A program made the translations under genes and the position numbers. The notes under the pieces are model-generated. The model was not told where the DNA came from, did no database searches, and saw nothing but the letters and a program-made list of their open reading frames with translations. From Paractinoplanes aksuensis (GTDB taxonomy: Bacteria > Actinomycetota > Actinomycetes > Mycobacteriales > Micromonosporaceae), in NCBI RefSeq assembly GCF_024137025.1, contig NZ_JAMYJR010000007.1:124001-188000 (forward strand): DNA of 64,000 nucleotides, written 5' to 3'. Below are positions 41,516 through 58,396 of the stretch, piece after piece; the stretch's first letter is position 1, and each line of letters starts with the position of its first letter.

Positions 41516-42636
41516 CGGTCGCCGGCTCCGGCGCCGGCCTTGGCCTGCTGGATGATGTGGACGGGCGGGGCGACGCTGGCGTAGATCTCGCGGGTCGCCA
41601 GCACGACGTCGCTCCAGGTCGGCAACGCGTTGCGGCCGTGCTCGGCCCGGGCCGTGCCCGCCGCGACCCGCAGGGCCTCGGCCAGCGCGGCCTCGTCGTC
41701 CGGGTTGACCAGCCACAGCGGGGCGCCCGGGGTGACCATCGCGGCCAGCTCCCGGTGAGCCGGGATGAAGCTGGCCACGGTCGGGATGCCGGCGGTCAGC
41801 GCGTCGGCCACGGCCATGCCGAACGCCTCGTGGCCGGACGCCGAGACCACCGCGGCGGCCGACGCCATCCGGGCCTGGAAGGCGCCGCCGGGCAGCCGCC
41901 CGTGGAAGACGACCCGCTCCGGTCCCAGCCCGAGCCGCTCGGCCAGGTACTCCCACTCCTCGCGGGCCGGCCCGGCGCCGACCACGTCGAGCCGGTGGTC
42001 GGCCGGCAGGTGGACCATCGCCTGGATCACCCGATCGACCCGCTTGTAGCGCTCGAGCCGCCCGACGCAGAGGATGCTGCGTCCCGGCTCGGGCCCGGCC
42101 ACCAGGTCGGGGGCCGGGTCGGTGCCGTTGGGTACCACCACCAGCCGCCCTCGCGCCTCCGGGAAGTGGTTGATCAGCAGTTCCCGCTCGGCCCGGGAGA
42201 CGCAGATGATCCGCCCGGCCCGGGCCACGATGCGCCGGCCCAGCGGCCGGTAGATCGGGTGCAGCGCCGCGCGCAGCCGGCTGTGCCCGGTGCCGTGGTA
42301 GTGCGGCGTGAACACCAGGGGCGTGCGGTTGGTGAGCGCGGCCGGCAGCGCGGCCAACGCGTGATAACTGTGCGCGTGCAGCACGTCGTAGCGGCCGGCG
42401 TTGCGGCGCAGCCACCGCCACAGGCCCATCGACAGCCGGTAGTTGGCCGCCTTGACCGTGAGCGGGAACCGGCGGACCAGCACTCCGTCGATCGATTCGA
42501 CCGAGCCGATGGTGTGCTGGGTCAGCACCTCGACCTCGTCGCCGGTGGCCACCAGCGCGGCGCACAGCCGCCGGACGTGCGTCTCGACGCCCCCGATGTC
42601 GGGATGATAGGCGCTCGTGACGACGCCGATCCTCAC
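41512..42636 (-). CDS. glycosyltransferase family 4 protein
   Basis: About 374 residues. VRIGVVTSAYHPDIGGVETHVRRLCAALVATGDEVEVLTQ and YDVLHAHSYHALAALPAAL form the acceptor half. PGRSILCVGRLERYKRVDRVIQAMVHL and VVSASGHEAFGMAVADALTAGIPTVASFIPAHRELA form the donor half, with an E-x7-E type motif. Similar to PimB-like mannosyltransferases. GTG at 42636 overlaps the GT2 stop (GTGA). Donor sugar unknown. Confidence 0.92.
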   Translation of the reverse strand: MRIGVVTSAYHPDIGGVETHVRRLCAALVATGDEVEVLTQHTIGSVESIDGVLVRRFPLTVKAANYRLSMGLWRWLRRNAGRYDVLHAHSYHALAALPAALTNRTPLVFTPHYHGTGHSRLRAALHPIYRPLGRRIVARAGRIICVSRAERELLINHFPEARGRLVVVPNGTDPAPDLVAGPEPGRSILCVGRLERYKRVDRVIQAMVHLPADHRLDVVGAGPAREEWEYLAERLGLGPERVVFHGRLPGGAFQARMASAAAVVSASGHEAFGMAVADALTAGIPTVASFIPAHRELAAMVTPGAPLWLVNPDDEAALAEALRVAAGTARAEHGRNALPTWSDVVLATREIYASVAPPVHIIQQAKAGAGAGDR

Positions 42637-43448
42637 CGCGCGCGCTCCGGCGCCGGCTGGGTCGCGGCCCGCCGCCGGCGCGGCCACTCGCGGGCGATCG
42701 TGCGCAGCACCCGCAGCCCGTCGGTGAACGCGTTGAGGTTGCTCTCGCCGTGGATGCGCTGCTGCTCGTAGCTGGGCACCTCGACGATGCGCAGCCGGGC
42801 CCGGGCCGCCCGCAGGGTCAGCAGGGTCTCGATCTCGAAGCCGTCGCCCCACAACCGGCCGTCGGCCCGGGTCGTGCTGTCCAGCGCGAACGCGTCGAGG
42901 TGGCGGGCCCAGAAGGCGTTGTAGCCGTAGCAGAGGTCGCTGTAACGGGTGTTGAAGAGCAGGTTGACCATGGCACTCAGGCAGCGGTTGCCGGCCCGGC
43001 GCAGCCGCGTGATGTCGGCGCTGCCGCCGCTGCCGGCGAAGCGGGAGCCCTTGGCGAAGTCGGCCCCGGCCCGCAACTCGGCGATGAAGCTGGGGATCTC
43101 GCGCGGGTCGGTCGACCCGTCGGCGTCGATCATGACCAGGATGTCGCCCGTGGCGGCGGCGAACCCGCAGGCCAGCGCGTTGCCCTTGCCGCGGCGGTTC
43201 TGCCGGACGACGCGGATGCCCGGCATCAGGCGGCGGGCCACGTCGACCGTGTCGTCGGTGGATCCGCCGTCGACCAGAATGACCTCGTCGACCGCGGGCA
43301 GGGCGGCCATCACGTGGGGCAGGTTGAGCGCCTCGTTGAGCGCGGGGATGATGACGCTGACCAGGGGCTCACCGGCCGCGACAAGCATCGGCGGCGGGAT
43401 CTCGGCGCCCGCTCCGGCCTCCGGGCGGGTGTAGGGAACCGTGGACAT
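42633..43448 (-). CDS. GT2 glycosyltransferase (dolichyl/polyprenyl-phosphate sugar synthase type)
   Basis: 271 residues, GT-A fold. VSVIIPALNEALNLPHVMAALPAVDEVILVDGGSTDDTVDVAR and LVMIDADGSTDPREIPSFI, with the metal-binding DAD, are typical. GSRFAGSGGSADITRLRRAGNRCLSAMVNLLFNTRYSDLCYGYNAFWA resembles polyprenyl-phosphate mannose/glucose synthases. It would supply the lipid-linked donor for the GT-C-like protein of the operon. ATG at 43448 has GGAG upstream. First gene of the coupled run. Confidence 0.92.
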   Translation of the reverse strand: MSTVPYTRPEAGAGAEIPPPMLVAAGEPLVSVIIPALNEALNLPHVMAALPAVDEVILVDGGSTDDTVDVARRLMPGIRVVRQNRRGKGNALACGFAAATGDILVMIDADGSTDPREIPSFIAELRAGADFAKGSRFAGSGGSADITRLRRAGNRCLSAMVNLLFNTRYSDLCYGYNAFWARHLDAFALDSTTRADGRLWGDGFEIETLLTLRAARARLRIVEVPSYEQQRIHGESNLNAFTDGLRVLRTIAREWPRRRRAATQPAPERAR

Positions 43449-43525
43449 GACTTCACTCCAAGACTCGGTGGGGTCGTGCGGGAGGCGCCCGCCGGGGCCT
43501 GTCGGGGCACCGGCGGGCCACCTGG

Positions 43526-44302
43526 TCAGACGCCGGAACCGTGAACGGTCCAGGAGTAGATGTCCTGCTTCGACAGGCCGGTGCCGGTGGACGCGGTGAA
43601 GCCGATCCACGCCTCGGAGTCGCGGACGTGCTGGGCGAGGTCGATCCCGCGCTCCAGCACCAGTTGCTCGGTCGAGCCGGCGCTCAGCGCCTTGACGTAG
43701 ACGCGCAGGCGGTGGTCCTCGGCGTCGTAGACGATCCGGGCGTTGAACGGCTTGCCGAACAACGGGATCGGCGCCTCGGTCGTGTCTTCCTGGTAGTCCG
43801 GGTTGCCGCCGAGCACGACCGCGAGGTGGTTGCGGCTCGGGTCGTACGAGTTCTGGTAGGTGTCGAACTCGACGGCCAGGCTCGGCTTGATGCCGCGGTA
43901 GCCCAGGCCGCCGCCCCACCCGCCGAGCGCCCGCGGACCCTCGGTCTGCACGACGAACGCGATGCCGTCGGCCCCGGGCCGGAAGTGGTGCAGGTAGACC
44001 TTGAACGCGGACTCGAACGACTGCGTGACGTCGAGCTTCTCGAGCGACCAGGCCGAGCCGGACTGGCGGTAGCCACCCGGGGTGAGCCGCAGGATCTTCT
44101 GCCGGACCTTGTCGCCGGACGACAGGATCAGGTCGGCCGCGCCGTTACGGTCGAGGCTCTTGCCCGCGCCCTTGAAGGTCGGGTAGTCGATCAGCGGGTC
44201 GTCGTCAGCCGCGAGGGCGGGTGCTCCCGCTGCGGCTATCGAGAGGGTCAGGGCGGCGGCGAGGCCACCCCACACCACCCTCGAGGAACGTGAGGAAGAC
44301 AC
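43526..44302 (-). CDS. secreted legume-type (L-type) lectin domain protein
   Basis: About 258 residues. The signal peptide (VVWGGLAAALTLSIAAAGAPALAA) precedes a single beta-sandwich. Hallmarks of the L-type lectin fold are FESAFKVYLHHFRPGADGIAFVVQTEG, GGGLGYRGIKPSLAVEFDTYQNSYDPSRNHLAVVLGG and the C-terminal EAWIGFTASTGTGLSKQDIYSWTV. The Asp, Asn and His of the metal/sugar site appear in ADGIAF and EFDTYQN. GTG at 44302 is preferred: the TTG at 44317 is itself part of a GGAG ribosome-binding site. It lies 77 bases upstream of the glycan operon and may bind its product. Confidence 0.85.
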   Translation of the reverse strand: MSSSRSSRVVWGGLAAALTLSIAAAGAPALAADDDPLIDYPTFKGAGKSLDRNGAADLILSSGDKVRQKILRLTPGGYRQSGSAWSLEKLDVTQSFESAFKVYLHHFRPGADGIAFVVQTEGPRALGGWGGGLGYRGIKPSLAVEFDTYQNSYDPSRNHLAVVLGGNPDYQEDTTEAPIPLFGKPFNARIVYDAEDHRLRVYVKALSAGSTEQLVLERGIDLAQHVRDSEAWIGFTASTGTGLSKQDIYSWTVHGSGV

Positions 44303-44389
44303 AGTTCTGCGCTCCAATTCGGATATTTTGCCCCACTAGGACGTGGCCTAAGGTAGGGCAGCGCGCAGAACCGCGTGAGTGAGATGAGG

Positions 44390-45508
44390 CTATTTATCCC
44401 GAATCGGAGGCACTTGCTCCGTTAGCCACGAATGGAACGCGCCGATGTGGTGCTCGCTCGGCACGAGCACACCCCCTTGCGCGTACGTCCGGGAGGCCAT
44501 CGACGGCTGGCAGCGCTCGCACGCCTCGAAGTCCTGACGGTTGACCCGATCGAACAGCTCGACCGAGCGGCTCAGGTCGACGCCCGAGGAGACCACGTCG
44601 GGCCGGAACAACCAATCGCACTCGACGATGGTGCGATCCACGGCCAGCGGATACATCCGGTGGAAGATCACGTGGTCGGGCACCAGGTTCACGAAGACCT
44701 GGGGCTTGATCGTGATCGCGTAGTAGCGGCGGTCCTGCTCGGCGGCCAGGGTGCCGATCGGGGCCACGCCGGGGCTGCCGTCCACCGTGAAGCCGGCCAC
44801 GTCCCGGCCGAACTCGGCGCCGTGTCCCACGTAGTACTGCGCGGCGTAGCCCCCGGCGAACTCCGGCAGCACGTGCACCAGCTCGGGGTGGATCGTCGCG
44901 CAGTGGTAGCACTCCATGAAGTTCTCGATGATCAGCTTCCAGTTGGCGGCCACGTCGTACCGGATGCGCCGGCCCACCTCGAGCGTCTCCAGCGCGTACC
45001 GGCCGATGGCGGCGAGGTCACCGAGGCGTTCGGCGCAGGCCCCCATGACGTCCTGCTCGAAGCTCGGCGGCTCGTCGGCCAGGCATACCCAGACGTAGCC
45101 CAGCCACTCCCTGACCTGCACTTTTCTTAACCCGAACTCATCTCGGTCGATGTCCGGCATCTTGACCAGGTTGGGCGCGGCCACGAGCTTGCCGTCGAGG
45201 CCGTACGCCCACGCGTGATACGAGCATCTGAACGTCCGCTTCACGTTTCCCGACTCCTCGACGCACAGCCGGGCGCCGCGGTGGCGGCAGACGTTGAGGA
45301 AGGCTCTGGCCTGTCCGTCGGCACTGCGGGTGACGATCAAGTTCTCCCGACCGACATTCACCGTACGGAAGGAGCCCGGCTCGCCGATGTCGGTGCTCCG
45401 GGCGACGCAGAACCACATCCGCTCGAAGATCGCCTCCTGCTCGGCCGCGAAGATCGCCGGGTCGGTGTAGTAGCGGCCGGCCAGCGTGGGCATCAGGGAC
45501 GACGTCAT
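44390..45508 (-). CDS. Rieske non-heme iron oxygenase, probable glycine betaine monooxygenase (GbcA-like)
   Basis: 372 residues. The Rieske centre is [29 protein letters not shown] (C-x-H ... C-x2-H). The mononuclear iron site is in [17 protein letters not shown]. Size and sequence fit oxygenases that demethylate quaternary amines (GbcA, or the carnitine enzyme CntA). Neighbours are dimethylglycine and sarcosine oxidases, so glycine betaine is the best substrate, giving dimethylglycine and formaldehyde. No ferredoxin-reductase partner (GbcB) is in the window. ATG has GGAGG upstream and overlaps the previous stop (ATGA). Last gene of the operon. Confidence 0.85.
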
Positions 45509-46641
45509 CCGAACCTCCGCGGATCGAACAGCCCGATGGGGTGGACGGTCGCGCCACAGGTCGCCAGGTCGGCCAGGATCTCGCCCACCACGGTCACGAA
45601 CTTGAACCCGTGGCCCGAGAACCCGCAGGCCACCGTCACCGACTCATGGGCCGGATGGCGGGCGATCACGAAGTGCTCGTCCGGCGTGGTGCTGTACATG
45701 CAGGGCTCGCCGCGCAGGAACCGGCCGGGCAGGTCGGGCAGCCGCCGCCCGCAGTAGGCGACCATCTCGGCGATCTCGTCCTCGTGGACCGCGGTGTCCA
45801 GGGTGTCCGGCGTGGTCGGCGTGCCCCGCCGGAAGAACGCGATCTTGGCGCCGCCCTCGGGCCCGTCGATGGCCGGGAAGCCGTAGATCTGGCCACCCTC
45901 GGCGTCCTCCCAGACATAGATCGGGTGCCGGTCCGGCCGGAACGGCTCGACGCCGCCGCGCGGCTGGTACCAGTGCTGCACCTGGCGCTCGATGCGGAAC
46001 TCGATCCCCAGGTCGGCCAGCAGCTCGGGCGCCCACGGCCCGGGCGCGAGCACCAGCTGACCGGCCGTGTACGAGCCGCCCGCGGTGGTCACCCGCACCC
46101 CGTCGCCGACCGGCTCCCAGCTCGTCATCGGCTCGTGGAAGCGCAGGTCGGCGCCGTGCTTGCCCGCGAGCTGCAGGTTGGCGGCGACGGTCGCCTCGGG
46201 CCGCACGAAGCCGGCCTTGGCCTCGTAGAGCGCGATCTCGTCGGGCTGCGGGGCCAGGGTCGGGAAGCGTCGGCGCAACTCTTCCGCGTCCAGGATCTCG
46301 TGCTCCAGGCCCCACTGCTCGGCGCTGGCCCGGCTGCCGGCCACGGTCCGGCTGTCCGGGCGGCCGATCATCAGGCCACCGGTCAGTGTGATCACGTCCC
46401 GGCCCGAGTCCGTGGCGAGCTGGTCGAACAGGTCGTACGCGCGCAGCAGCAACGGCACGTACTCCGGGCCTTCGAAGTACGACTGCCGGGTAACCCGGGA
46501 GCCGCCGTGGCTGGCCCCGCGGTCGTGGGCCGGACCGTACTTCTCGAGGCCGAGCACCCGCTGACCGCGCGCCGCGAGCTGGAAGGCGGCGGCACTGCCC
46601 ATGCCGCCGAGACCGACAACGATGACGTCGTACGCCGACAA
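45505..46641 (-). CDS. monomeric sarcosine oxidase
   Basis: 378 residues. FAD-binding GxGxxG start [21 protein letters not shown], then [46 protein letters not shown] contains the Cys that binds FAD covalently in monomeric sarcosine oxidases; [10 protein letters not shown] follows as in that family. Oxidises sarcosine to glycine, formaldehyde and H2O2. TTG start at 46641 with GGAGG five bases upstream. Between DMG oxidase and the Rieske gene. Confidence 0.92.
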
Positions 46642-46657
46642 GATGCCTCCAGGTGGT

Positions 46658-49009
46658 TCAGGCGCGCAGCCGTTCGTGCTCGGGGTCGAACAGGGGCTCG
46701 GCGGCGACGGTGGCGCGGAGCCGGCGGTCGAAGTAGCCGATCGTGACCTCGGCGCCGGGCCGGGCCAGGGCGGCCGGAAGCCAGGCGTACGCGATCGGCG
46801 CCCCCACCGTGTGGCCGTAGGCGGCGCTGGTCACGAAGCCGACCGGTGTCCCACCGTCATACACCGGCTCGCGGCCCATCGGCACGGAACCGGCGTCGTC
46901 CAGCACCAGGCAGGTGAGCAGCCGGTCGGTCTTCTCGTCGAGCGCATCCCTCCCGATGAAGTCACCGGCGTCGCGGCGAACGGCAAAACCGACCCCGCTT
47001 TCGTACGGGGTGTCCTCGGCGGTCATGTCGGTGCCCCACAGCCGGTAGCCCTTCTCGAGGCGCAGGCTCGTGAAAGCGGCCCGCCCGGCGGCGATGAGGC
47101 CCAACCCCTGGCCCGCCGCCCACAGGGTGTCCCACAGTTTCAGGGCACAATCGGCCCGGGTGTAGATCTCCCAGCCCAGCTCGCCCACGTACGACAGCCG
47201 CAGCATCGTCACCGGGACCGTGCCGACATAGCCCTCCCGAGCCTGGAAGTAGCGGAAGCTCTCGTTGGACACGTCGATGTCGGTGAGCGGGGCGACCAGC
47301 TCGCGAGCCCGCGGACCCCACACGCCGAGCCCGCCGGTGCTGCCGGTGACGTCCCGGATCCGGACGCCGGGCGGCGCGTGCCGGCGCAGCCAGTGCAGGT
47401 CGATCGGGCCGTTGACACCGACCTGGAACCTCTCCTCGCCCAGCCGCGCCACCGTGACGTCGCTGCGGACCTTGCCGGCCTCGTCGAGCAGCATCGTGTA
47501 CGTCACCGAGCCAGCCCGCTTGTCCACGTTGTTGCTGGTCATGGCCTGCAGGAAACTCACCGGGCCGTCGACCTCGAGGCGCATGAGCGGGGTCATGTCG
47601 TACAGGGCGACGCTCTCGCGGGTGATCCGGGCCTCGGTCCCGGCGATCGGCGACCAGTGGCGGCTCGACCAGGCGTCCCGCTCCCTCGGCACGGGGGCCG
47701 GGTTCGACTCGTACCAGAGCGGCCGTTCCCAGCCCGCAGCCTCGCCGAAGACCGCGCCCAGCTCGACGTGCCGGGCGTGGAAGGGTGTCGTGCGGACGTC
47801 GCGGACACCGGGCGGGTCGAGCGGATGGACGATGTCGTAGACCTCGACGAAGCTGCGGATCGAGCGCTCCCGCACGTAGGCCGGGGCCAATTGCGTACGG
47901 TCGAAGCGGTTGAGATCGCACTCGTGCAGGTCGATGCTCGGGCGACCGGTGACCATCCACTCGGCGACCTCGCGCGCCGCGCCGGCCGAGTGGGTCACCC
48001 AGATCGCCTCGGCGCTCCAGAAGCCGGGCCGGTCGGCCGCCTCGCCCAGCAACGGGAAGCCGTCGGCGGTGAACGAGAAGACACCGTTGAATCCGTCGGT
48101 TCGTTCGGCATCTTTGACAACCGGCAGAAGGTCGGCGGCGGCTGCCCAGGACTCGCCGAAAGTGTCGGGGGTGAACGGGAGCATCGACGGGTGCTCACCC
48201 TTCGACAGCTCGTCCAGGCCCACCGGCATCGGCTCGTGCAGATAGCTGCCGATGCCCAGGGCCTCGCCGTGCGCCCGGAAATAGAGGTCCCTGTCCTGGT
48301 GGCGCAGGATCGGCAGGTCGTCGTGGGCGCCGGCCGGGCCGGTGCGCACGTACTGGTGGGCCATCGGCAGCAGGGGGATCGTGACTCCGGCCAGCGCCCC
48401 GATCCGCGGGCCCCAGAACCCGGCGCAGCTGACGACGATGTCGGCCTGATATGTCGCGCCTTCCGTGCGTACTTTGCTGATCTTTCCTTTTTCGATGATC
48501 AACTCGACGACCCGGGCCTGGGCGACGAATCGGGCGCCGTTCTCCTTCGCTCTTCGTGCCTGCCGCTCACCGGCCTCGACGGCCAGAGCCAGGCCGTCGG
48601 TCGGCACGTGCAGTCCGCCCTCGACCCGGCTCTTGTCGAGCAGGGGGAACAGCTCGGCGCACTCGACCGGGTCGATCACCCGCGAGCCGATCCCCCACGA
48701 CTGGCCGAAGCCGAAGCGGCGGTGCAACTCCTGCAGCCGTTCCGGCGTGGTTGCCACTTCGAGGCTGCCGACCGGGCGGAAGCAGTCCAGCCCGGTCAGT
48801 TTCTCGACGGTGTACTTCGCCATCCGGGCCATCGTCCGCGACGGGTTGGTCTGGAAGACCAGTCCCGGGGCGTGCGAGCTGGAACCGCCGGTCACGAACA
48901 GCGGCCCCTGCTCCAGCACGGTGACGTCGGTCCAGCCGCGCATGGTCAGCTCATCGGCGAGGGCACAGCCCACGATCCCGGCGCCGATGATCACCACCTT
49001 CGGGCCCAT
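46658..49009 (-). CDS. dimethylglycine oxidase (FAD oxidase fused to folate-binding GcvT-like domain)
   Basis: 783 residues, near the 830 of Arthrobacter dimethylglycine oxidase. N-terminal FAD part: [98 protein letters not shown]-terminal folate part (GcvT-like): [66 protein letters not shown]. It converts dimethylglycine to sarcosine, passing the methylene to tetrahydrofolate and making H2O2. ATG has GGGAG seven bases upstream; four bases from the binding-protein stop. Confidence 0.93.
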
Positions 49010-49012
49010 GGC

Positions 49013-49969
49013 TCAGCTCCCGGCCGGGATCCAGGGCTTCCAGGTGGCCTCGTGCTCGGTCACCCACTTCTCGGCAGCCTTCTCGGCCGACATGCCCTGG
49101 TTGGTGATGTAGTCCGAGACCAGGTTCTGGTCGTCGTTGCTCCACGTGAAGTTCTTGATGAACTGATAGGCGGTGCTGTTGGCGTCGGCGAACTTCTTGC
49201 TGGCGATCTTGTCGAGCACGTAGTCCGGGTAGTCGCAGGCCACCTTCTTGGTGTCCGCGTCACAGCCCTCCTTGTACTCGGGCAGCTTCACCCGGACGTA
49301 CTTCTCCTGGGCGAACAGCCACTGCGGTTCGTAGAAATAGAAGAGCAGCGGCTTGGTCTGGGCCGAGGCCTGCTGGGCGGCCTTGATGATCGCCGCCTCG
49401 CTGCCCGAATAGACCACTGTGTAATTCAGCTTGAGATTGCTGACCAGGGCTTCGTCATTGGTGACGAAGGACGGGTCGCCCGCCAGGAACTGCCCCTTAC
49501 CCTTCGACTCCGAGGTCTTGAACAGGTCGGCGTACTTGTTGAGGTTTTTCCAGTCGGTGATGTCGGGATACTTGTCGGCCATCCACTGCGGCACGTACCA
49601 GCCGATCGTGCCCTGGTTGCCGGTCGGGCCGACCTCGACGGCGACCTTCTTGTCCTCGATATAGGTCTTCTTGAGGTCGGGGTGACCCCAGTTCTCGACG
49701 ATCGCGTCGACCTCGCCGGTCTCGAAGCCCTGCCAGGCGATCTCTTCCTTGAGGTCCTTCTTCTCGACCGTGTAACCCATCTTCTTCTCGAGCAGGTGGG
49801 CGATGACGGCGGCGTTGGCCTCGTAGCCGACCCACGGGTTGATCGCGAGGTTCACTGTGCCCTTGGCCCCGGCGCTGGGCTCGTCCTCCCCCGCGCCCGA
49901 GGTGGCGCCGCCGCACGCGGTCAGGGTCACTATCAGCGCCGCCGCGGCGGCCGTCCGCAGAGTTCTCAT
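49013..49969 (-). CDS. glycine betaine/choline ABC transporter substrate-binding lipoprotein (OpuAC/ProX type)
   Basis: About 318 residues. Signal with lipobox LTAC (Cys19). The OpuAC domain has VNLAINPWVGYEANAAVIAHLLEKKMGYTVEKKDL, DAIVENWGHPDLKKTYI, GWYVPQWMADKYPDITDWKNL and LFYFYEPQWLFAQEKY. The Trp and Tyr residues in these blocks fit an aromatic box for a trimethylammonium group. ATG overlaps the permease stop (ATGA). Confidence 0.93.
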   Translation of the reverse strand: MRTLRTAAAAALIVTLTACGGATSGAGEDEPSAGAKGTVNLAINPWVGYEANAAVIAHLLEKKMGYTVEKKDLKEEIAWQGFETGEVDAIVENWGHPDLKKTYIEDKKVAVEVGPTGNQGTIGWYVPQWMADKYPDITDWKNLNKYADLFKTSESKGKGQFLAGDPSFVTNDEALVSNLKLNYTVVYSGSEAAIIKAAQQASAQTKPLLFYFYEPQWLFAQEKYVRVKLPEYKEGCDADTKKVACDYPDYVLDKIASKKFADANSTAYQFIKNFTWSNDDQNLVSDYITNQGMSAEKAAEKWVTEHEATWKPWIPAGS

Positions 49970-51918
49970 CGTCGAGGTCCCTTCGTGTGGTGGAAACCCT
50001 GGGTCAAGCGGTCGAGCACGATGCCGAGCAGCACGATGGCGAGCCCGGCGGCCAGGCCCCGGCCGAACAGCTCGCGCTGCGAGAAGCCGGCCACGACGTC
50101 GTATCCGAGGGCCCCGGCGCCGACCAGGCCACCCACGACGACCATGGCCAGGACCATGACGATCCCCTGGTTGGCCGCGAGCAGCAGGCCACCGCGGGCC
50201 ATCGGCAGCTGCACCTTCCACAGCAGCTGCCGCGGGGTCGAGCCGGCCGAGAGCGCGGCCTCGACGACGGTCGGCGGCACGTCGCGCAGCCCCCGCTCGA
50301 CCAGTCGCACCACGGGCGGCACGGCGAAGATGACCGCAGCCACGATCGCGGTGAACCGGCTCGCGCCGAACAACGCCACCGCCGGCAGCAGATACACGAA
50401 CGAGGGCATGGTCTGGGCCGCGTCCAGCAGCGGGCGGATCCCGGTGGCGAGGCGGTCGTGACGCGCGCAGAACACCCCGACGGCCACGCCGATGGTCATC
50501 GTCAGCACGATCGCCACGAGCACGGTGGCCAGCGTCTGCATCGAGTGCTGCCACAGGCCCAGCCCGGCGATCCCGGCCGAGGCGAGCGCGGCGATCAGGG
50601 CCGCCCGCCACCCGCTGATCAGCGTGCCGAAGGCGGCCACAGCGGCCACGAAGAGCCACCACGGCGTGGTCACCAGCACGGTCTCGAGCGGATCGAGCAC
50701 ACCGGCGCTGATCCCGTTCTTGAGCCCCTCGGTGACGTCGAACCAGTGCAGCTCGATCCACCCGACGAGGTCGTTGACCGGCCCCGCGAACGAGTAGCCG
50801 GGCAGGTCGTCCGGATCGATCCGCACCACAGCCGCAACCACCACGACGGCCAGCGCGACGCCCGCGCCCACCCACCGCAGCCGGCGCTGCCGAGCGGTGC
50901 GGTGGACCCGGGTGCGGCGGGCGGCGTTGGTGGTTATCCGGTCGAGCACCACGGCCAGGATCACGATGGCCAGCCCGGCGTCGAAGGCCGCACCCACGTT
51001 GACCCGTTGCAACGCGCTCACGATGTTCTGCCCCAGGCCGGGCGCGTCGATCAGCGCCGTGATCACCACCATCGACAGCGCCAGCATGATCGTCTGGTTG
51101 ACGGCGAGCGCGATCGTGGTGCGAGCCATCGGCAGCCGCACCTTGCCCAGCAGCTGCCACCGGGTCGAGCCGAGCGCCGTGGCCGCTTCCACCGCCGTCG
51201 GCGAGACCTCGCTGATCCCCAGCGCCGTGATCCGGATCGTGGCCGGCACCGCGTAGATCATCGTGGCGATCACCGCGGCCGGCTCCCCGATCAGGAAGAG
51301 CAACGTCATCGGGGCCAGATAGGCGAACGTCGGCATGATCTGCATGACGTCGAGCACCGGCCGCAGCGTCGCCCCGACCCACCGCACCCGGGCCGCCAGG
51401 ATCCCGAGCGGCACCCCGATCAGCACCGAGAGCAACACCGCCGAGACCGTCAGCACCAGCGTGTCGACACTCTGCTCCCACAGCCCGAGCACCCCGAAGG
51501 CCAGGAACCCGCCCAGCGCCAGCAACCCCGTGCGCCACCCGGCCAGCACCGCGCCGATCGCCGCCACCGCCGCCACCAGGCCCGCGAAGCCGAGCCCGGT
51601 CAGCGCCCCGTAAACGCCGTCGACCAGCAGCCGCACCCCCAGCCGCACGTAGTTGAAGCCGTACAGGAAGAACGGGCTGGAGTCGCGGTTGGCATCGACC
51701 CAGTCCCGCACACGGTCGAAGAACCGAAACGCGGCCGCGTCGCTGCTGTCGGCTGCCCCCTCCGTCCGAAACACCAGATAGGCCACCACGGTCACGACAA
51801 CCGCCCCCGCGGCCACCATCCGCCGCCGCCCCGCCCCACGCCGCCGCGGCCCAGCCACACTCGGGGCCGACTCGACCACCCGCCCGTCCGGCCGAAGCGC
51901 CGGCAACGTCGCGGTCAC
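49966..51918 (-). CDS. betaine/choline ABC permease with two fused ProW-like domains
   Basis: 650 residues, about twice a usual ProW/OpuAB permease. Each half has its own BPD transport domain: first half VRPVLDVMQIMPTFAYL-like with EAATALGSTRWQLLGKVRLPMARTTIALAVNQTIMLALSMVVI; second half LLDAAQTMPSFVYLLPAVALFG with EAALSAGSTPRQLLWKVQLPMARGGLLLAANQGIVMVLAMVVV. The EAA loops are both intact, so one chain could form the whole translocation pore. GTG at 51918 has GGGAGG upstream. Fusion is certain from the open frame; substrate is from context. Confidence 0.92.
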   Translation of the reverse strand: MTATLPALRPDGRVVESAPSVAGPRRRGAGRRRMVAAGAVVVTVVAYLVFRTEGAADSSDAAAFRFFDRVRDWVDANRDSSPFFLYGFNYVRLGVRLLVDGVYGALTGLGFAGLVAAVAAIGAVLAGWRTGLLALGGFLAFGVLGLWEQSVDTLVLTVSAVLLSVLIGVPLGILAARVRWVGATLRPVLDVMQIMPTFAYLAPMTLLFLIGEPAAVIATMIYAVPATIRITALGISEVSPTAVEAATALGSTRWQLLGKVRLPMARTTIALAVNQTIMLALSMVVITALIDAPGLGQNIVSALQRVNVGAAFDAGLAIVILAVVLDRITTNAARRTRVHRTARQRRLRWVGAGVALAVVVVAAVVRIDPDDLPGYSFAGPVNDLVGWIELHWFDVTEGLKNGISAGVLDPLETVLVTTPWWLFVAAVAAFGTLISGWRAALIAALASAGIAGLGLWQHSMQTLATVLVAIVLTMTIGVAVGVFCARHDRLATGIRPLLDAAQTMPSFVYLLPAVALFGASRFTAIVAAVIFAVPPVVRLVERGLRDVPPTVVEAALSAGSTPRQLLWKVQLPMARGGLLLAANQGIVMVLAMVVVGGLVGAGALGYDVVAGFSQRELFGRGLAAGLAIVLLGIVLDRLTQGFHHTKGPRR

Positions 51919-52315
51919 GCCCGCCCCCTCCCCACGCCGGCCCTCTCCCCGCCCGCGGCCCGACGTCCTCGCCCCACCCGCATTCCTCGCGCGACACGGT
52001 GGGCGCGCGGAGCCTGCACTTCCTCCCCCGGCCGACCATCGCGCGTGACCAGATCTCCTCGCGCTTCCCGACCACCGCGCGCTTCCCTGCCACCGCGCGG
52101 GGTCTGGCCTCCTCGCACTTCCTTACCGCCGCGCAGCACCCGGACGTCCCGCGGGGCAAGCTCCCCGCGCGCCTTCCTTCCACCGCACGCGGACTGGCCT
52201 CCCCGCACTTCCCCATCGCCGCGCGGCACCCGACCGTCCCGCGCGGCCGGCCCGATGTGCGCGGCACGGCCGTTGCGCATCGTCGGCTTCGGTTGCGGGG
52301 TCGGCGGGTGGGGGT
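51919..52315. repeat. degenerate repeat spacer inside the choline operon
   Basis: 397 bases with no gene. Two copies of a roughly 66-base unit at 52091 and 52181 (90-base period) differ at about 11 positions. A shorter CGCGCTTCCC-type unit repeats around 52059-52090. The frame is open on both strands, which is expected for GC-rich repeats; no domain or start signal supports a protein. It separates the ATPase gene from the permease gene of one importer. Confidence 0.8.
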
Positions 52316-53350
52316 TCATGCCGGCACCTGGCGGTGGTGACTGATCAGGGCGGGCAGCAGCTGGTCGGCGTCGATCACGCCGAGCTGGTCGCGGCCGTCG
52401 ACCACGGCGATCGGGCGGTCGGCGCGCAGCACGCGGTGGACCGCGTCGCGGATGACCGTACGGTGGCTCAGAGGTTCGTCCTCGCAGAGCTCGCCGGGGG
52501 CGGCGTCCCGCATGATCCAGCGCAGGGTCAGCACGTCGGATCGGGGCACGTCGCGCACGAAGTCGGCCACATAGGAGTCGGCCGGCGCGCCGACCAGGTC
52601 TTCCGGGGTGCCGACCTGCACCAGCGCGCCGTCGCGGAGGACGGCGATCCGGTCGCCCAGGGTCAGCGCCTCGGCCAGGTCGTGCGTGATGAAGACCAGC
52701 GTCTTGCCCACCTCGGCGTGCAGGCGGCGCACCTCGGCCTGCATGTCCCGGCGGATCAGCGGGTCGAGCGCGCTGAACGGCTCGTCGAACAGCAGCACCT
52801 CGGGGTCGGCGGCCAGCGCCCGGGCCAGCCCGACCCGCTGCTGCATGCCGCCGGAGAGCTGGTCCGGGTACTGGTGCTCCTGACCGTCGAGGCCGACCAG
52901 GGCCAGCGTCTCGGTCGCCCGCCGGTGCCGCTCGGCCCGTGGCACGCCCTGGATCTCGAGGCCATAGGCGACGTTGTCGAGCACCGGCCGGTGCGGCAGC
53001 AGCCCGAAGTGCTGGAACACCATCGCGACCTGCCGCCGGCGCAGCTCGCGCAGCCGCTTCGGGTTCATCGCGCGCACGTCCTCGCCGCCGATGCTGATCT
53101 GGCCGCTGGTCGGCTCGATCAGCCGGGTCAGACAGCGGACCAGCGTCGACTTCCCGCTGCCGGACAGCCCCATCACCACGAAGACCTCGCCCGGCGGCAC
53201 GTCGAAGCTGACGTCGCGCACCGCGGCGAGGCAACCGGTGCGGGCGCGCAACTCGGCCGGGGACAGGTCGGCCAACGGGGTTCCGATCACCCGCTCGGCG
53301 CGCGGCCCGAAGACCTTCCACAGACCCGCTATCTCGATCATCGGTGCCAT
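52316..53350 (-). CDS. glycine betaine/choline ABC transporter ATP-binding protein (ProV/OpuAA type)
   Basis: 344 residues. [19 protein letters not shown] with the following linker is typical of ProV/OpuAA. Walker [11 protein letters not shown]-loop [23 protein letters not shown], signature [15 protein letters not shown], Walker [21 protein letters not shown] and FITHDLAEA are intact. A C-terminal CBS-like segment ([33 protein letters not shown]) fits the regulatory tail that senses osmotic strength in OpuA. ATG at 53350 has GGAG seven bases upstream. 14 bases behind the choline oxidase stop. Confidence 0.94.
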
Positions 53351-53364
53351 CCGCAGACTCCGCT

Positions 53365-55005
53365 CTATTCCTGGCGTCCGGCGGGATCGGCCCGATGAGA
53401 GGCCGGGTCACCCTGGTGGTCGGTCGCGTCAGCTCGCTCGGCCGGACGGGATCGCCGGCCGGTCAGCTCGGCCTGGATCAGGTCGGCCGCGCGTTCGCCG
53501 ATCATCAGCACGGTCACCATCGGGTTCACCGAGGGCATCAGCGGGAAGATCGACGCGTCGGCGATCCGGACGTTGGGCACGCCGCGCAGCCGCAACTCCG
53601 GATCGACCACCGCCTGGCCGTCGGTGGCGGCGCCCATGCGGCACGTGCCGGCGGGGTGATAGACGGTGTGATGAGCGGCCCGCCCGTACGCCGAAAGCTC
53701 TTGATCGGTTCGCAACGCGGGCCCGGGCGCGATCTCCCGGGCGATCCACGACGCGAAGGGTTCGGTCGCCGCGACCTCGCGGGCCAGGCGCAGCCCGTCC
53801 ACGATGGTCCGCTCGTCGTAGCCCTCGGGGTCGGTGAAGTAGCGGAAGTCGAGCAGCGGTTTGGTCGCCGGGTCGGCGTCGGCCAGGGTGAGCCGGCCGA
53901 CGCTGCGCGGGCGCGGCACGTTGGGCGTCATGCCGAAGCCGTGCTCGGGCACGTCGTAGCCGAGCCGCTCGGTGTTGAACGTGAACGGGATCTGATAGAG
54001 GTGGAACATCAGGTCGGGCCGCGCGGCGCCCGGCTCGCGGCGGACGAACAGCCCGGCGTCGGAGTCCATGGCCGACATCGGCGGGATCGGGCGGCTCGCC
54101 TCCCACAGGATCAGCGACTCCGGATGGTCGAGCAGGTTCTCGCCGACGCCCGGCACGTCCTGGCGTACGGAAAGGCCGAGCTCCTCCAGATCGGCCGCCG
54201 GCCCGATGCCCGACAGCAGCAGCAGTCGCGGCGTGTCGACGGCGCCCGCGCACAGCACGTACTCGCTCGTCGCCTTGATCAGTTTGGTGGTGCCGCCGCC
54301 CCGCACGGAGACGCCACGTTCCGGATCCAGGTGGAACGCCCAGTGCTCGGTGAGGACGGTCAGGTTGGGCCGGTCGAGGTGCGGGTGCAGATACGCGACC
54401 GAGGCCGACGAGCGGACGCCCGTCTCGGGGTGATAGCCGACCGGGAAGAACCCGGTGCCATCGGCGAACGGCGCGGCGTTGAAGTCGTCGTGGATCGGGA
54501 CGCCCAGAGCGGTGTGACAAGCCGTGACGAAATCCTCGGTCAACGGGTTCCGGTCACGCTCGGCCACGGGGACGATGTTCACCGCCAGTCGCTTCCACAA
54601 AGGCAGCATTTCGTCGTACGACCATCCGGCTGCCCCCGCGTCCACCCAGTCGCCGAAATCGTCGGGCGGCGGCAGAAAACTGATCATGGTGTTGTGCGAC
54701 GAACAACCGCCCAGCACCCGCGCCCGAGCATGCCGCAGATGCGAGTTGCCGCGCGGCTGCGGAACGATCGGATAGTCGTAGTCGTACTCGCCCTCGAGCA
54801 GGTTGATCCAGTTCCGCAACCGAAGAATCGCCTGGTCACCCACGTCGGACGGCCCACCCTCGACCACGCAGACCCGCAGCTGCGGATCAGCCGACAGCCG
54901 CGACGCGACGACCGACCCGGCCGTGCCACCGCCGATGATCACCACGTCGTACTCGATGGTTTCCAGCGTGCGCCACCTTCCGCCGAGCCGTGGACAAAGA
55001 ATCAT
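53365..55005 (-). CDS. choline oxidase-like GMC flavoprotein
   Basis: 546 residues. FAD-binding [22 protein letters not shown], then [20 protein letters not shown], whose His matches the covalent-FAD His of Arthrobacter choline oxidase. [27 protein letters not shown] is the GMC signature 2. Active-site residues appear in [15 protein letters not shown] and [18 protein letters not shown]. Choline oxidase makes betaine in two O2-dependent steps, so no aldehyde dehydrogenase is needed. The family match is by eye; other GMC oxidoreductases are possible. ATG at 55005 has no ribosome-binding site; a CTG at 54966 has GAAGGTGG six bases upstream and lies next to the conserved start. Confidence 0.87.
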
Positions 55006-55022
55006 CAGTCCGCGTGGCGCCG

Positions 55023-55095
55023 GTCAATGTCAACAACAGACTTTTACCTCAGTGCAACAAAGGCAGTTGCATTGATCAACGTCAACACAGTCTTA
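55023..55095. promoter_or_regulatory. repeat-rich control region of the choline operon
   Basis: Low-GC stretch between the divergent choline oxidase and phosphodiesterase genes. Two direct repeats, TCAATGTCAACAACAGACTT (55024) and TCAACGTCAACACAGTCTT (55076), flank an inverted repeat TGCAAC-N7-GTTGCA (55053-55071). A second GTTG-N7-CAAC follows at 55066-55080. These look like operator half-sites for a dedicated regulator not encoded next to the operon. Confidence 0.6.
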
Positions 55096-55148
55096 TTCTG
55101 CCGTTTTGTCGGACCCCCGTCCCCCGCCCCCGGCCATCGGCCGGCCCC

Positions 55149-55154
55149 TACGAT
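55149..55154 (+). promoter_or_regulatory. TACGAT -10 element for a leaderless phosphodiesterase mRNA
   Basis: TACGAT, six bases, then the GTG at 55161. No ribosome-binding site precedes the GTG. The layout matches other leaderless starts in the window. Confidence 0.5.
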
Positions 55155-55160
55155 CGGCTC

Positions 55161-55913
55161 GTGCCCTTCCTGGACGGCCCGACCCCGCTGGCGTTCGCCC
55201 ACCGCGGCGGCGCCGCCGACGGCGACGAGAACACGGTCGAGGCCTTCGAACGCGCCGTGACCCTCGGCTACCGCTACGTGGAGACCGACGTCCACGCCAC
55301 CGCCGACGGCGTACCCGTGGTCTTCCACGACGCCACCCTCGACCGCGTGACCGGCCAGGCCGGCCGCATCTCCGACCTGACCTGGCCCGACCTGCAGTCG
55401 GTCCGGATCGCCGGCGCCGCCCTGGTCCCCCGCCTGGACGATGTGCTGGCCGCCTGGCCCACCATCAACTTCAACATCGACATCAAGGCCGACTCCGGCG
55501 TGACCCCCACCGTCGACACGATCCTCAGGTCGCAGGCCGCCGACCGCGTCCTGCTGGCGTCCTTCAGCGACCGCCGCCTGGCCCGGGCCCGAGCCTTGGC
55601 CGGCCCCGCGATCGCCACCTCGCTGGGCTCCCGATCGGTGGCCCGGCTGCGCTTGGCCTCCCTGGCCGGCCTCCCGCTGCGCCTACCCCCGTCAGTGGCC
55701 GCCGTCCAGGCACCCCCACGCCTGGGCCGGGTCACGGTGGTCGACCGCCGCTTCATATCCCTGTCCCACCGCCTGGGCCTACAGGTCCACGTCTGGACCA
55801 TCGACGACCCCACCGAAATGACCCGCCTGCTCGACCTGGGCGTGGACGGCATCATGACCGACCGCCTGACCGTCCTCCGCGACGTCTTCGCGGCCCGCGG
55901 ACTGCCACTCTGA
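55161..55913 (+). CDS. glycerophosphodiester phosphodiesterase
   Basis: About 250 residues, the usual size of cytoplasmic GDPD enzymes. LAFAHRGGAADGDENTVEAFERAVTLGYRYVETDVHATADGVPVVFHDATLDRVTG contains the catalytic HRG, EN, E-x-D and HD residues of the TIM barrel. LVPRLDDVLAAWPTINFNIDIKAD and a C-terminal HVWTIDDPTEMTRLLDLGVDGIMTDRL complete the family pattern. It splits glycerophosphodiesters such as glycerophosphocholine into glycerol-3-phosphate and the alcohol. No signal peptide. Divergent from the choline operon, so choline release from glycerophosphocholine is a natural link (inference). Confidence 0.92.
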   Translation: MPFLDGPTPLAFAHRGGAADGDENTVEAFERAVTLGYRYVETDVHATADGVPVVFHDATLDRVTGQAGRISDLTWPDLQSVRIAGAALVPRLDDVLAAWPTINFNIDIKADSGVTPTVDTILRSQAADRVLLASFSDRRLARARALAGPAIATSLGSRSVARLRLASLAGLPLRLPPSVAAVQAPPRLGRVTVVDRRFISLSHRLGLQVHVWTIDDPTEMTRLLDLGVDGIMTDRLTVLRDVFAARGLPL

Positions 55914-56831
55914 GACCGCCCCCGCCCCGGCACGAGTTCCAGGCCTCGCGCCGCGCGGCCGTGGTGGTCAGCCACGAGCTTCCCCGAACCGCACCGGCAG
56001 CCCGGCGTGACGCTCAGCCACCTGAGCGGCGCCGGCGACACCGCGGCACCCCGAGCTCGCCCAGCCGCCGGCAAGCCCCTACCGACCGACCGCCCGCCGC
56101 CGGCCAGCCCCCTACCGGCCGCCCCAACGCCGGCAAACCCCTACCGACCGCCCGCCGCCACCGCCAGCCAGCCCTCTACCGGCCGCCCCAACGCCGGCAA
56201 ACCCCTACCAGCCACCCACCACCCCCCACCGCAGGCAAGCCCCCGGACCGGCAGCCACCCCCTGCCCGCAGGAAGCCCTCGTCGGCAGCCCATCCCCGCA
56301 CGCAGCAAATCCCGGCCGACGCCCGCCGTCCCACCGAAAGCCCACCCTCCCCGGGGGACCCCCACCCTCCGGCACGCCGTCAAATTCGGCGACTCCATCA
56401 TCCACAACCCGGGCCGACCGAACCGGAGTTATCCACAGGCTCCCGCCTCCGCCGAACGGTGGAATTCGCGCAAGAATCGCGTCGATAAGCTGGGCGGACG
56501 CAATTCCCAGGCAGCTCCAAGGTGCATCGGGATGAACATGTACTACATTTCTCCGTGCGGAACCGTCGTCGGGCGACCTCGGAGCGTCACCGAGAGGCCC
56601 ACGAGCGAAGTCCCAGCTCAGCGAAGTTTTCGCGATCTTGGTTGAACGCTGGACATCGGCCGTTCGGATGATGTCGGGGGTTCGACGGGTCGCCCATATT
56701 TTTTCTTTAAGTCTGGGCTAAGAATTCATCAAGTTCGCTGGCGGAATTGCATTCCGGCGGGCTGGCTCTTACCGTCTGGGAGCCGGTCGGAATTTGGGCC
56801 GGGTGGATTCAGCGAAGATGAGGTATGACGC
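55914..56831. other. long non-coding stretch with repeats and a surface-protein promoter region
   Basis: About 918 bases. 55914-56400 is Pro-codon-like, C-rich repeat DNA, with open frames in several phases and no domain. 56400-56831 is less GC-rich and should hold the promoter of the surface protein gene. A single TTATCCACA nonamer (56429-56437) matches a DnaA box but stands alone. No RNA gene was recognised. Confidence 0.6.
56067..56209. repeat. three spaced copies of a C-rich repeat, two with 34 identical bases
   Basis: GCCGGCAA[G/A]CCCCTACC occurs at 56067, 56129 and 56193 (periods 62 and 64). The second and third copies extend to 34 identical bases (56112-56145 and 56176-56209). Non-coding as far as can be seen. 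Confidence 0.88.
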
Positions 56832-58256
56832 ATGCGTAGGCCTGCTTACCGCCGCGCGGCCGCCACGCCGTCGGGACGCAACCGACGAGTGTTCGCGGTC
56901 GGCGCCGTGATCGCCGCCCTGGGCGCGGCCGTCGGATTCGCCTCGCTCTCCGGCGCGGCCGAGAACGACCGGCCCGAGGGCAGTGGCGCCGGCAAGGTCG
57001 TCAACGGCCAGGTGATCCTGACCGACACCTGCATCGACAGCACCCTGGCCCCGCACGACGGCTTCCAGCTCGGCAGCAAGTGCGTGTCCACCGAGTTCGG
57101 TGAGGTCGGCGAGGCCAAGGACAACCCGAGCCTGCTGATCACCGACGCACCGCAGGAGGTCGCGCCCAACACGCCCTTCTCGCTGAAGATCAGCACGCGC
57201 AACCTGATCCGTGACCGCTTCCTCGCGGCCGGCAAGGGTGGCTACTACGTGGAGAGTTCGGTCCTGCGTGACGGTCTCGTCCGCGGCCACTTCCACACCG
57301 CGTGCCGCATGCTCGACAACACCGACGAGGCGCCCGCGCCCGACCCGGTTCCGGCGTTCTTCGTCGCCACCGAGGACAGCAAGGGTTCCGCCACGCCCGA
57401 CGAGGTGACCATCGCGGTCCCGGGCGTGCCGACCGAGGGCACCGCCCAGTGCTCCTCATGGGCCGGTGACGGCTCCCACCGCGTGCCGATGATGGTCCGC
57501 GCCAACCAGACCCCCGCGATCGACTCGGTCCGCATCACCGTCCGCAACGCCGGAGGCGGCGACAACGGCGGCGGCGACAACGGCGGCGGTGACAACGGCG
57601 GCGATGGCGACAACGGCGGCAACAACGGCGGCGGTAACAACGGCGGCGGCGACAACGGCGGCGATGGCGACAACGACGGCGGCAACAACGGCGGCGGCGA
57701 CAACGGCGGCGATGGCGACAACGGCGGCGGGACGCCCGGCAACCCCACCACCACCATCTCGCCGACCAAGCCGACCAAGCCCCCGGTCAACAACCCCACC
57801 ACGACGCCCCCGACGGTGAAGGACGACTTCACTCCGGACCCGACCAAGCCGGCCACCACGACCAAGCCCACCAAGCCGGCCACGACCAAGCCGGCCACCG
57901 CCGGCAACGAGAACGCCGGCAACGGCGGCAACGAGAACAGCGACGACGAGGACCAGAACGAGGCCCCGCCGGCCACGAAGGCCCCGAAGCCCAAGCCGAC
58001 CGTCAGCAAGACCCCGATCGCCGGCACCGACTACACCTACGAGGACGGCCAGTTCAACTCCGGCAACAAGGCGCCGGTCGAGGACCAGGTGGCCCAGGTG
58101 CAGGCCAGCACCAAGAAGGACGACGGCGGCCTGCTCGCCCTGACCGGTAACAACACGGTCGCGGTGGTCGGTGGCGCGGCGGTCCTGCTGATGATCGGTC
58201 TGATCATCATGGCGCTGACCCGGCGCCGCCGCCTCCCGGGCAGCACCTGGGAGTAA
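56832..58256 (+). CDS. sortase-anchored surface protein with Gly/Asn/Asp repeats
   Basis: 474 residues. N-terminal export signal (VFAVGAVIAALGAAVGFASLSG), then a folded domain of about 190 residues with paired Cys (DTCIDS, SKCVSTEFG, TACRML, AQCSSW). A GGGDNGG-type repeat of about 60 residues and a Thr/Lys/Pro stalk (TTTKPTKPATTKP) follow. The C-terminus is LALTG (435-439), a hydrophobic helix and RRRR, a class-E sortase signal. A sortase would link it to peptidoglycan. Function of the outer domain unknown. ATG follows a GATGAGG stretch. Confidence 0.85.
   Translation: MRRPAYRRAAATPSGRNRRVFAVGAVIAALGAAVGFASLSGAAENDRPEGSGAGKVVNGQVILTDTCIDSTLAPHDGFQLGSKCVSTEFGEVGEAKDNPSLLITDAPQEVAPNTPFSLKISTRNLIRDRFLAAGKGGYYVESSVLRDGLVRGHFHTACRMLDNTDEAPAPDPVPAFFVATEDSKGSATPDEVTIAVPGVPTEGTAQCSSWAGDGSHRVPMMVRANQTPAIDSVRITVRNAGGGDNGGGDNGGGDNGGDGDNGGNNGGGNNGGGDNGGDGDNDGGNNGGGDNGGDGDNGGGTPGNPTTTISPTKPTKPPVNNPTTTPPTVKDDFTPDPTKPATTTKPTKPATTKPATAGNENAGNGGNENSDDEDQNEAPPATKAPKPKPTVSKTPIAGTDYTYEDGQFNSGNKAPVEDQVAQVQASTKKDDGGLLALTGNNTVAVVGGAAVLLMIGLIIMALTRRRRLPGSTWE
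57556..57730 (+). repeat. GGCGGCGACAAC-type coding repeats
   Basis: Array of near-identical 9- and 12-base units encoding GGGDNGG / GGDGDNGG. It forms a flexible, acidic spacer in the surface protein and is a likely slippage hotspot. Confidence 0.85.
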
Positions 58257-58303: not shown

Positions 58304-58343
58304 GTGTGCCGAAGATCCCGCCGGGACGTACGGGGTGGAAAAG

Positions 58344-58362
58344 TGAGGGTAGCCTTACCAAC
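58344..58362. promoter_or_regulatory. IdeR/DmdR-type iron box upstream of the siderophore-interacting protein gene
   Basis: TGAGGGTAGCCTTACCAAC matches the actinobacterial iron box TTAGGTTAGSCTAACCTAA at 14 of 19 positions with the core AGGxTAGCCTxACC intact. It lies about 35 bases before the ATG, where an iron-loaded repressor would block transcription. Confidence 0.78.
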
Positions 58363-58396
58363 CGACGATCCGGGATGCGACGGAAGAGGAATCAGC

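Follow-up and report, generated by a model that had tools for sequence, protein, structure and literature searches.

Where does a Rieske oxygenase obtain its electrons when the operon that encodes it carries neither a ferredoxin nor a ferredoxin reductase (FdR)? The question is raised by a locus of Paractinoplanes aksuensis (genome of 10.0 Mb in 99 contigs, high GC) within the 64,000-nucleotide stretch of contig NZ_JAMYJR010000007.1 that we analysed and call the window. Seven genes follow one another on the minus strand, encoding a GMC oxidase, the ATPase, fused permease and substrate-binding protein (SBP) of an ABC importer, a dimethylglycine oxidase (DMGO), a monomeric sarcosine-oxidase-type flavoenzyme (MSOX) and the Rieske oxygenase, with successive gaps of 14, 397, -4, 3, 16 and -4 bp; a GDPD-family phosphodiesterase gene diverges from them, and this layout is the one that a first-pass annotation of the window had described. 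That annotation took the locus for an apparently complete, all-oxidase route from choline to glycine. Our analysis shows that the operon is a real, conserved and streamlined variant of the choline/betaine degradation module of actinobacteria, whose biochemistry is in outline the one first guessed, and that its surprising part is the missing partners. On the strength of its gene families, the operon probably imports choline and/or betaine and degrades them aerobically to glycine.

The Rieske oxygenase (44390..45508, minus strand; PF00355 and PF00848) is a predicted glycine betaine N-demethylase, which scores 168 bits against 3vca, a structure that we take to be Stc2, and 145 bits against the carnitine monooxygenase 6y8j. 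It displays the hallmarks of quaternary-amine Rieske oxygenases, C-x-H/C-x2-H and ECYHC: the ligands C74, H76, C95 and H98 and the stretch E199-C200-Y201-H202-C203 are invariant across 15 aligned rows, and the ECYHC motif, whose Glu is presumably the bridging one, aligns in both 3vca and 6y8j, the two enzymes on which the kinship first proposed with quaternary-amine demethylases holds. No ferredoxin or FdR gene is linked to it in the cluster.

To place this gene set we compared the 36 genomes that GTDB groups in the same genus, that is, 35 relatives and the window genome. Of the 35 relatives, 25 have a Rieske homologue with 72% identity or more and the other 10 have no such gene. The arrangement of the window (CodA-like GMC oxidase, ABC importer, DMGO, MSOX and Rieske oxygenase; hereafter variant A) is found in 16 of the 35 relatives and so, with the window genome, all seven genes occur in 17 of 36 genomes, which makes common within the genus an arrangement that had been called unusual. 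The seven genes do not stand together by chance, since they form a single locus in 15 of the relatives and in the sixteenth, G014 (G and L numbers are our handles for genomes and loci), are divided between two contig ends, L188 and L049. Among the single loci, some matches are split or partial in L041, L043, L044, L053 and L066. A second arrangement, variant B, occurs in six of the 35 relatives (L055-L060), all of which encode BetA (at least 87% identical to that of L057), betaine aldehyde dehydrogenase (BADH, at least 82%), FdR (at least 69%) and an IclR regulator (at least 73%) as well as DMGO, the Rieske oxygenase and the importer; SoxB is present in five of them; in G013 the 9 kb read past the importer did not show it. 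In L057, BetA (847 bits, cut-off 732) and SoxB (645, cut-off 529) pass their models, and BADH (592, cut-off 668.6), the HcaD-like FdR (242, cut-off 450) and the BhcR-like IclR (184, cut-off 350) fall below theirs; the Rieske ferredoxin of the variant B type was recognised by its motif, and an HcaC-type model identified it in L160. Three further loci are arranged otherwise: L042, where no MSOX was detected, L052, with only DMGO-MSOX-Rieske, and L054, which has an IclR gene and no GMC gene.

The partners are present or absent jointly across the genus. BADH at E 1e-120, FdR at 73% or more and the ferredoxin at 74% or more each mark exactly the six variant B genomes of the 36, and the IclR homologue occurs in those six plus G008, and in none of the 19 genomes that bear the control element described below. 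Weaker FdR homologues (37-49%) are scattered among carriers and non-carriers alike, and the carriers G002, G007 and G027 show no FdR homologue at E 1e-45.

For the rest of the Actinomycetota we compared the best 80 named loci of at least 462 relatives, with presence scored by set identity floors; 20 of the 80 fall short of 21 kb and some genomes are represented twice, and the presence counts are lower bounds. Among these best 80, an FdR gene is co-directional with the Rieske gene and no more than 500-700 bp from it in at least 40, and lies anywhere in the locus in at least 64; IclR is present in at least 69, BADH and DMGO in at least 39 each, BetA in at least 33, SoxB in at least 17, MSOX in at least 16 and a GMC oxidase of the window's clade in at least 8. 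The window is not alone in lacking FdR, which was not found in 12 of the 60 full-length loci either, among them L104 and L107, both variant A. In a sample of 396 genomes of Actinomycetota, 52 (the window genome included) have any match at 1e-60, and in nine of the others it reaches 64% identity or more. The companions of the module vary: BetA with BADH in some relatives, a true CodA-clade enzyme in others (L151, L163, L172, L180 and L182), and a window-clade GMC oxidase together with BADH, FdR and IclR in Lentzea (L146, L158, L159 and L169) and Streptomyces sp. V4I2 (L183), with the ferredoxin also observed in L146 and L183; the Lentzea and V4I2 loci possibly represent an intermediate state. 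On a Streptomyces chartreusis plasmid a BADH gene (61%) lies directly upstream of a window-type GMC gene (67%), and the rest of the module was not found within the 29.5 kb read. Some Streptomyces carry two Rieske copies about 20-25 kb apart (S. scabiei L118/L142; L111/L148; L128/L154), one of them with BetA, BADH and importer and the other with SoxB; the second copy may have another methylated amine as its substrate. Taken with the genus comparison, the operon would be a streamlined alternative of a widespread actinobacterial module, from which BetA, BADH, the Rieske ferredoxin, FdR and IclR are missing, and we infer that the direction of change was a loss of partners.

The word complete was accordingly wrong for the operon, because it provides its Rieske enzyme with no electron donor of its own: most related loci have both ferredoxin and FdR, and no close homologue of the variant B ferredoxin or FdR was found in the window genome. 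With both missing, genes outside the operon must supply the electrons for the predicted demethylation. The nearest ferredoxin in the window genome (40% identical to the dedicated ferredoxins of the sister clusters) is a Rieske ferredoxin of 110 amino acids (L184:3793-4125), encoded in a SUF operon between genes that we read from the open reading frames as sufD and sufC. All 36 genomes have a homologue at 37-43%; that of the window genome, the one whose place was read, is a candidate electron donor to the Rieske oxygenase. For the reductase, the window genome offers seven FAD_binding_6 matches and one FdR homologue at 43%, none of which could be tied to the operon; some of the FAD_binding_6 matches adjoin, by reading, genes of other functions (paa-type genes, a desaturase). 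A siderophore-interacting protein encoded at 58304-59227 was considered as reductase and set aside, there being no direct evidence for it and a similar position in many relatives that looks like genus synteny.

The operon has a conserved control sequence of its own. A cis-element of 39 bp, approximately TTGTTGCRYNGMNGTAAAAG-N11-CATTGACC, lies upstream of it at 55022..55060 (minus strand) and is a block common to 13 aligned upstream regions. Its 20-bp core, in an early version that allowed up to three mismatches, was met at 21 loci in the 2.36 Mb examined, each time followed by N11 and a CATTGACC-like stretch, L105 and L107 being duplicates of L050 and L048; over the same 2.36 Mb the element was not found in variant B loci or outside Actinoplanes. 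In L052 it directly precedes the DMGO gene of DMGO-MSOX-Rieske. The refined core (up to two mismatches) accompanies this operon in every one of the 19 genomes searched, which were chosen as carriers of the operon or part of it, all but G014 already showing the element, and are not a random sample; the new information of this search is the scarcity of further sites, namely two over the 19 genomes, both with two mismatches and both in G007, against 14 matches for a backwards-pattern control. A regulon search for the missing reductase with this core thus gave no second consistent site in the 19 genomes. By its distribution, the element appears to be operon-specific and to stand where no local regulator remains. 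An inverted repeat, TGCAAC-N7-GTTGCA, is present in the promoter region of the window only among the 13 regions scanned, and no Rfam element was found within 43000-57500 at E 0.1.

We infer all substrates and all reactions of the pathway, which would run as follows. The ABC importer would bring in choline and/or betaine; the CodA-like flavo-oxidase would convert choline via betaine aldehyde to betaine, consuming two O2 and releasing two H2O2; the Rieske oxygenase would take one methyl off betaine, released as formaldehyde, at the cost of O2 and two electrons; DMGO would turn dimethylglycine into sarcosine, passing the methylene to tetrahydrofolate and forming H2O2; and the MSOX-type enzyme would yield glycine, formaldehyde and H2O2. 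The use of O2 at every step, as proposed from the outset, follows from the enzyme families assigned (CodA-like, DMGO, MSOX and Rieske). DMGO (46658..49009, minus strand) scores 916 bits against 1pj5, presumably the A. globiformis-type enzyme, and has a DAO + FAO_M + GCV_T architecture with both folate domains (PF01266, PF16350, PF01571 and PF08669). The MSOX-type protein (45505..46641, minus strand) best matches the PDB entry named Sarcosine oxidase, 7exs (322 bits), then 1zov (247 bits) and, less well, the N-methyltryptophan oxidase (MTOX) 2uzz (206 bits), in agreement with the sarcosine oxidase call. In a multiple alignment it retains H45, R49, R52, Y254, K265, C315, Y317, G344 and K348, and M245V and H269F are changed relative to the sarcosine-oxidase residues; we take the compared residues to be the Cys of the covalent FAD and the substrate and O2 residues. 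No SoxA above the model cut-off is encoded in the window genome. In the importer, the ProV/ChoV-type ATPase (52316..53350, minus strand) passes TIGR01186 (ProV-type; 359 bits, cut-off 326.6) and the fused permease (49966..51918, minus strand; two BPD_transp_1 stretches by PF00528) passes TIGR03416 (ChoW-type, likewise in two stretches; 421.6 bits, cut-off 363), as expected of the three-part betaine-type importer first described; TIGR03415 and the ProV and ProW equivalog models stay below their cut-offs. The third part is an OpuAC-type SBP (49013..49969, minus strand; PF04069, 153.6 bits) whose N-terminus is lipoprotein-like by eye.

The GMC oxidase (53365..55005, minus strand), first gene of the operon, had been called choline-oxidase-like, and the comparison of CodA with BetA favours CodA. 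Among PDB entries it matches the choline oxidase 2jbv best (462 bits), against 208.5 bits for the highest-scoring chain named choline dehydrogenase, and a tree of 29 rows separates 22 CodA-side rows, the window's among them, from seven BetA rows with a split support of 100/100; BetA identity was rejected on both counts. At the four compared positions that set CodA and BetA apart, the window enzyme shows the CodA residues W61, H99, V464 and Y465, H99 being presumably the flavin-linking one, and the seven BetA rows have A61, I99, A464 and L465; E312, H351, H466 and N510 are also retained but are common to CodA and BetA. In this tree the window enzyme does not fall inside the clade of the characterised choline oxidase: its own clade (16 rows) is the sister of that of 2jbv (six rows), both being starred. 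The best BetA homologue in the window genome is about 40% identical over its length. Translation probably starts at CTG 54963 rather than at ATG 55005: all 13 aligned upstream regions keep the CTG, with an AAGGTGG-like stretch ahead of it, and the ATG is not conserved.

Several observations weigh against the proposed pathway. The Rieske protein scores 210.6 bits against the NCBIfam model for GbcA (NF058607), whose cut-off is 670, so that GbcA identity was rejected on this cut-off and the label GbcA-type had to be abandoned; the MSOX-type gene passes the NCBIfam model for N-methyl-L-tryptophan oxidase (460.8 bits, cut-off 257) and misses that of soxA_mon (285 of 480); the SBP falls below the cut-offs for both ProX and the choline-binding protein, and its best solved relative is 4xz6 at 81 bits. 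The GMC oxidase keeps eight of ten compared pocket residues, with S101T and W331S altered, and the changes are shared by its clade, where 15 of 16 rows have T at S101 and all 16 have S or A at W331; the exception, L053, is a long and aberrant row with L101, R99 and G61. Its substrate may differ from choline, because the changed S101 and W331 line the choline oxidase pocket; both lie close to the substrate bound by the enzyme of A. chlorophenolicus (PMC10991250), and the S101A change lowers the overall turnover of choline oxidase (PMC4764120). For a sister of CodA with two altered pocket residues, choline specificity can only be proposed. One alternative is an enzyme that mainly oxidises some other amino alcohol, or that hands betaine aldehyde over to an aldehyde dehydrogenase encoded elsewhere, and so is no true two-step choline oxidase, in a module that would still degrade betaine, or choline and betaine. 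BADH does adjoin other GMC oxidases of this clade, and the window genome has many aldehyde dehydrogenases, the best of them 43% identical to BADH; yet the catalytic H466 and N510, as well as E312, H351 and H99, are retained, and none of the 19 element-bearing genomes has a BADH ortholog at E 1e-120. We regard this alternative as unlikely, although it is one to be reckoned with.

Less room is left for an operon that would accumulate betaine from choline as an osmoprotectant, with demethylases that only trim the excess. Two Arthrobacter genome papers place codA with betB and betT (PMC2991359) or beside a betaine-aldehyde dehydrogenase gene (PMC3534580), as such a role would have it; here, three demethylation genes belong to the operon itself, and L052 has the same cis-element before DMGO-MSOX-Rieske and no GMC or importer gene in the 19.6 kb read, and we find the idea improbable. 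Quite improbable, too, is action on another quaternary ammonium compound, be it carnitine, stachydrine or a dimethyl or trimethyl amine: 3vca and the carnitine monooxygenase are the closest solved relatives of the Rieske protein, and 4xz6 that of the SBP, but two linkages speak for betaine: that to DMGO, which acts on what betaine yields when demethylated, and, in relatives, that to BetA and BADH. That the operon is decaying, its Rieske step non-functional for want of FdR, ferredoxin and regulator, is a very improbable reading; the partners are indeed missing and one draft relative (L066) has its Rieske match broken in two, but the frame is open in the other carriers read, the cluster ligands are invariant, the cis-element is retained, and dN is below dS in all 18 comparisons made, including five of five for the Rieske gene. 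Between the window and L038, dN and dS (nonsynonymous and synonymous divergence) are 0.063 and 0.32 for the Rieske gene and 0.043 and 0.26 for the GMC gene, a mark of purifying selection. Rieske oxygenases can also react through a peroxide shunt, and the H2O2 that the three neighbouring flavo-oxidases would release, as many as four for each choline, might drive betaine demethylation without ferredoxin and FdR; if true, this would make a self-fed peroxygenase of an NADH-dependent monooxygenase and account for the missing electron chain, but Lentzea L146 and Streptomyces L183 have similar oxidases and still keep ferredoxin and FdR, and we give the notion hardly any credence.

The GDPD gene (55161..55913, plus strand; PF03009, 162.6 bits) had been taken for a linked glycerophosphocholine hydrolase, a link that we could not sustain. 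Its start is likely GTG 55161 rather than 54990, since the latter would overlap the GMC reading frame. The gene adjoins the operon in 14 Actinoplanes loci (L038-L048, L051, L066 and L188), is not beside it in L050, L053 and L061, and among the best 80 named loci, several of which end early on that side, accompanies the module in a single one, again an Actinoplanes. It also falls short of the glycerophosphodiester phosphodiesterase model PRK09454 (91.6 of 264 bits), and these results point to a neighbour held by genus-level synteny rather than to a member of the pathway. Within the operon, the 397-bp gap between ATPase and permease looks like an insertion specific to the window, because the aligned ends are closer in relatives (up to about 180 bp); it holds an imperfect tandem repeat of 90 bp in 1.9 copies (52075..52247), which could be an RNA element, a polarity element or a plain expansion. 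The operon is trailed by a gene for a secreted, possibly lectin-like protein (43526-44317) and two glycosyltransferase-like genes (41512-43445), recognised by eye, in an order kept in many Actinoplanes and with functions unrelated as far as seen. On the other side, 56832-58256 encodes a protein that, again by eye, is predicted to be exposed at the surface: it bears a membrane anchor at its C-terminus and long repeats rich in Gly/Asp/Asn and in Thr/Pro.

How does this operon compare with the systems already described? The Pseudomonas route, with BetA, BetB, GbcA, GbcB, DgcAB and SoxBDAG as its published gene set (PMC12093977), has the same expected intermediates, choline, betaine, dimethylglycine, sarcosine and glycine; the window has instead an oxidase for BetA/BetB, a single-chain DMGO for DgcAB and a monomeric sarcosine oxidase for SoxBDAG, with a Rieske protein that is not GbcA by cut-off and no linked GbcB-type gene. 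The Arthrobacter codA locus likewise has a betaine-forming enzyme of the CodA family, and a DMGO of the same type exists in Arthrobacter, but codA is accompanied there by BADH and a transporter. The actinobacterial Rieske clusters (Streptomyces, Nonomuraea, Amycolatopsis, Lentzea and others) have the same oxygenase at 70-80%, often the same importer or DMGO, and combine FdR, Rieske ferredoxin, IclR, BetA, BADH and ABC importer in varying sets; most of them possess the three-component electron chain and IclR, and the window operon has neither. A plasmid of Priestia megaterium (NZ_CP071467, L187, hypersaline source), from another phylum (Bacillota), shares the order DMGO-MSOX-Rieske at 44%, 57% and 43%, respectively, followed by a BCCT transporter gene and with gcvPA, gcvPB, gcvH and gcvT nearby; although it differs in lacking GMC and ABC importer genes in the 17 kb read and is only 43-57% identical, it supports the demethylation module. 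In the open-access literature that we searched, which leaves most subscription papers aside, we found no account of the cluster in Actinoplanes, and none that identifies this Rieske family with betaine demethylation. Pathways of this type are known; what is new is a version without the usual electron partners and regulator and with its own conserved control sequence.

The finding provides a concrete candidate for the betaine-to-dimethylglycine enzyme, which goes unnamed in the available parts of two Arthrobacter genome papers, one stating that two of the three enzymes from betaine to glycine were not identified (PMC2991359), the other giving the betaine route as incomplete (PMC3534580). Annotation has hidden this family: the Priestia proteins are recorded as FAD-dependent oxidoreductase, N-methyl-L-tryptophan oxidase (solA) and, for the 43% Rieske member, aromatic ring-hydroxylating dioxygenase, and where Nonomuraea has a Rieske member at 71% the record shows no gene. 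A single genus thereby offers a natural experiment, a dehydrogenase and three-component version of one pathway next to an all-oxidase, partner-free version, which makes testable both the electron source of a Rieske oxygenase without its own ferredoxin and FdR and the way in which a near-unique control element is kept without a local regulator.

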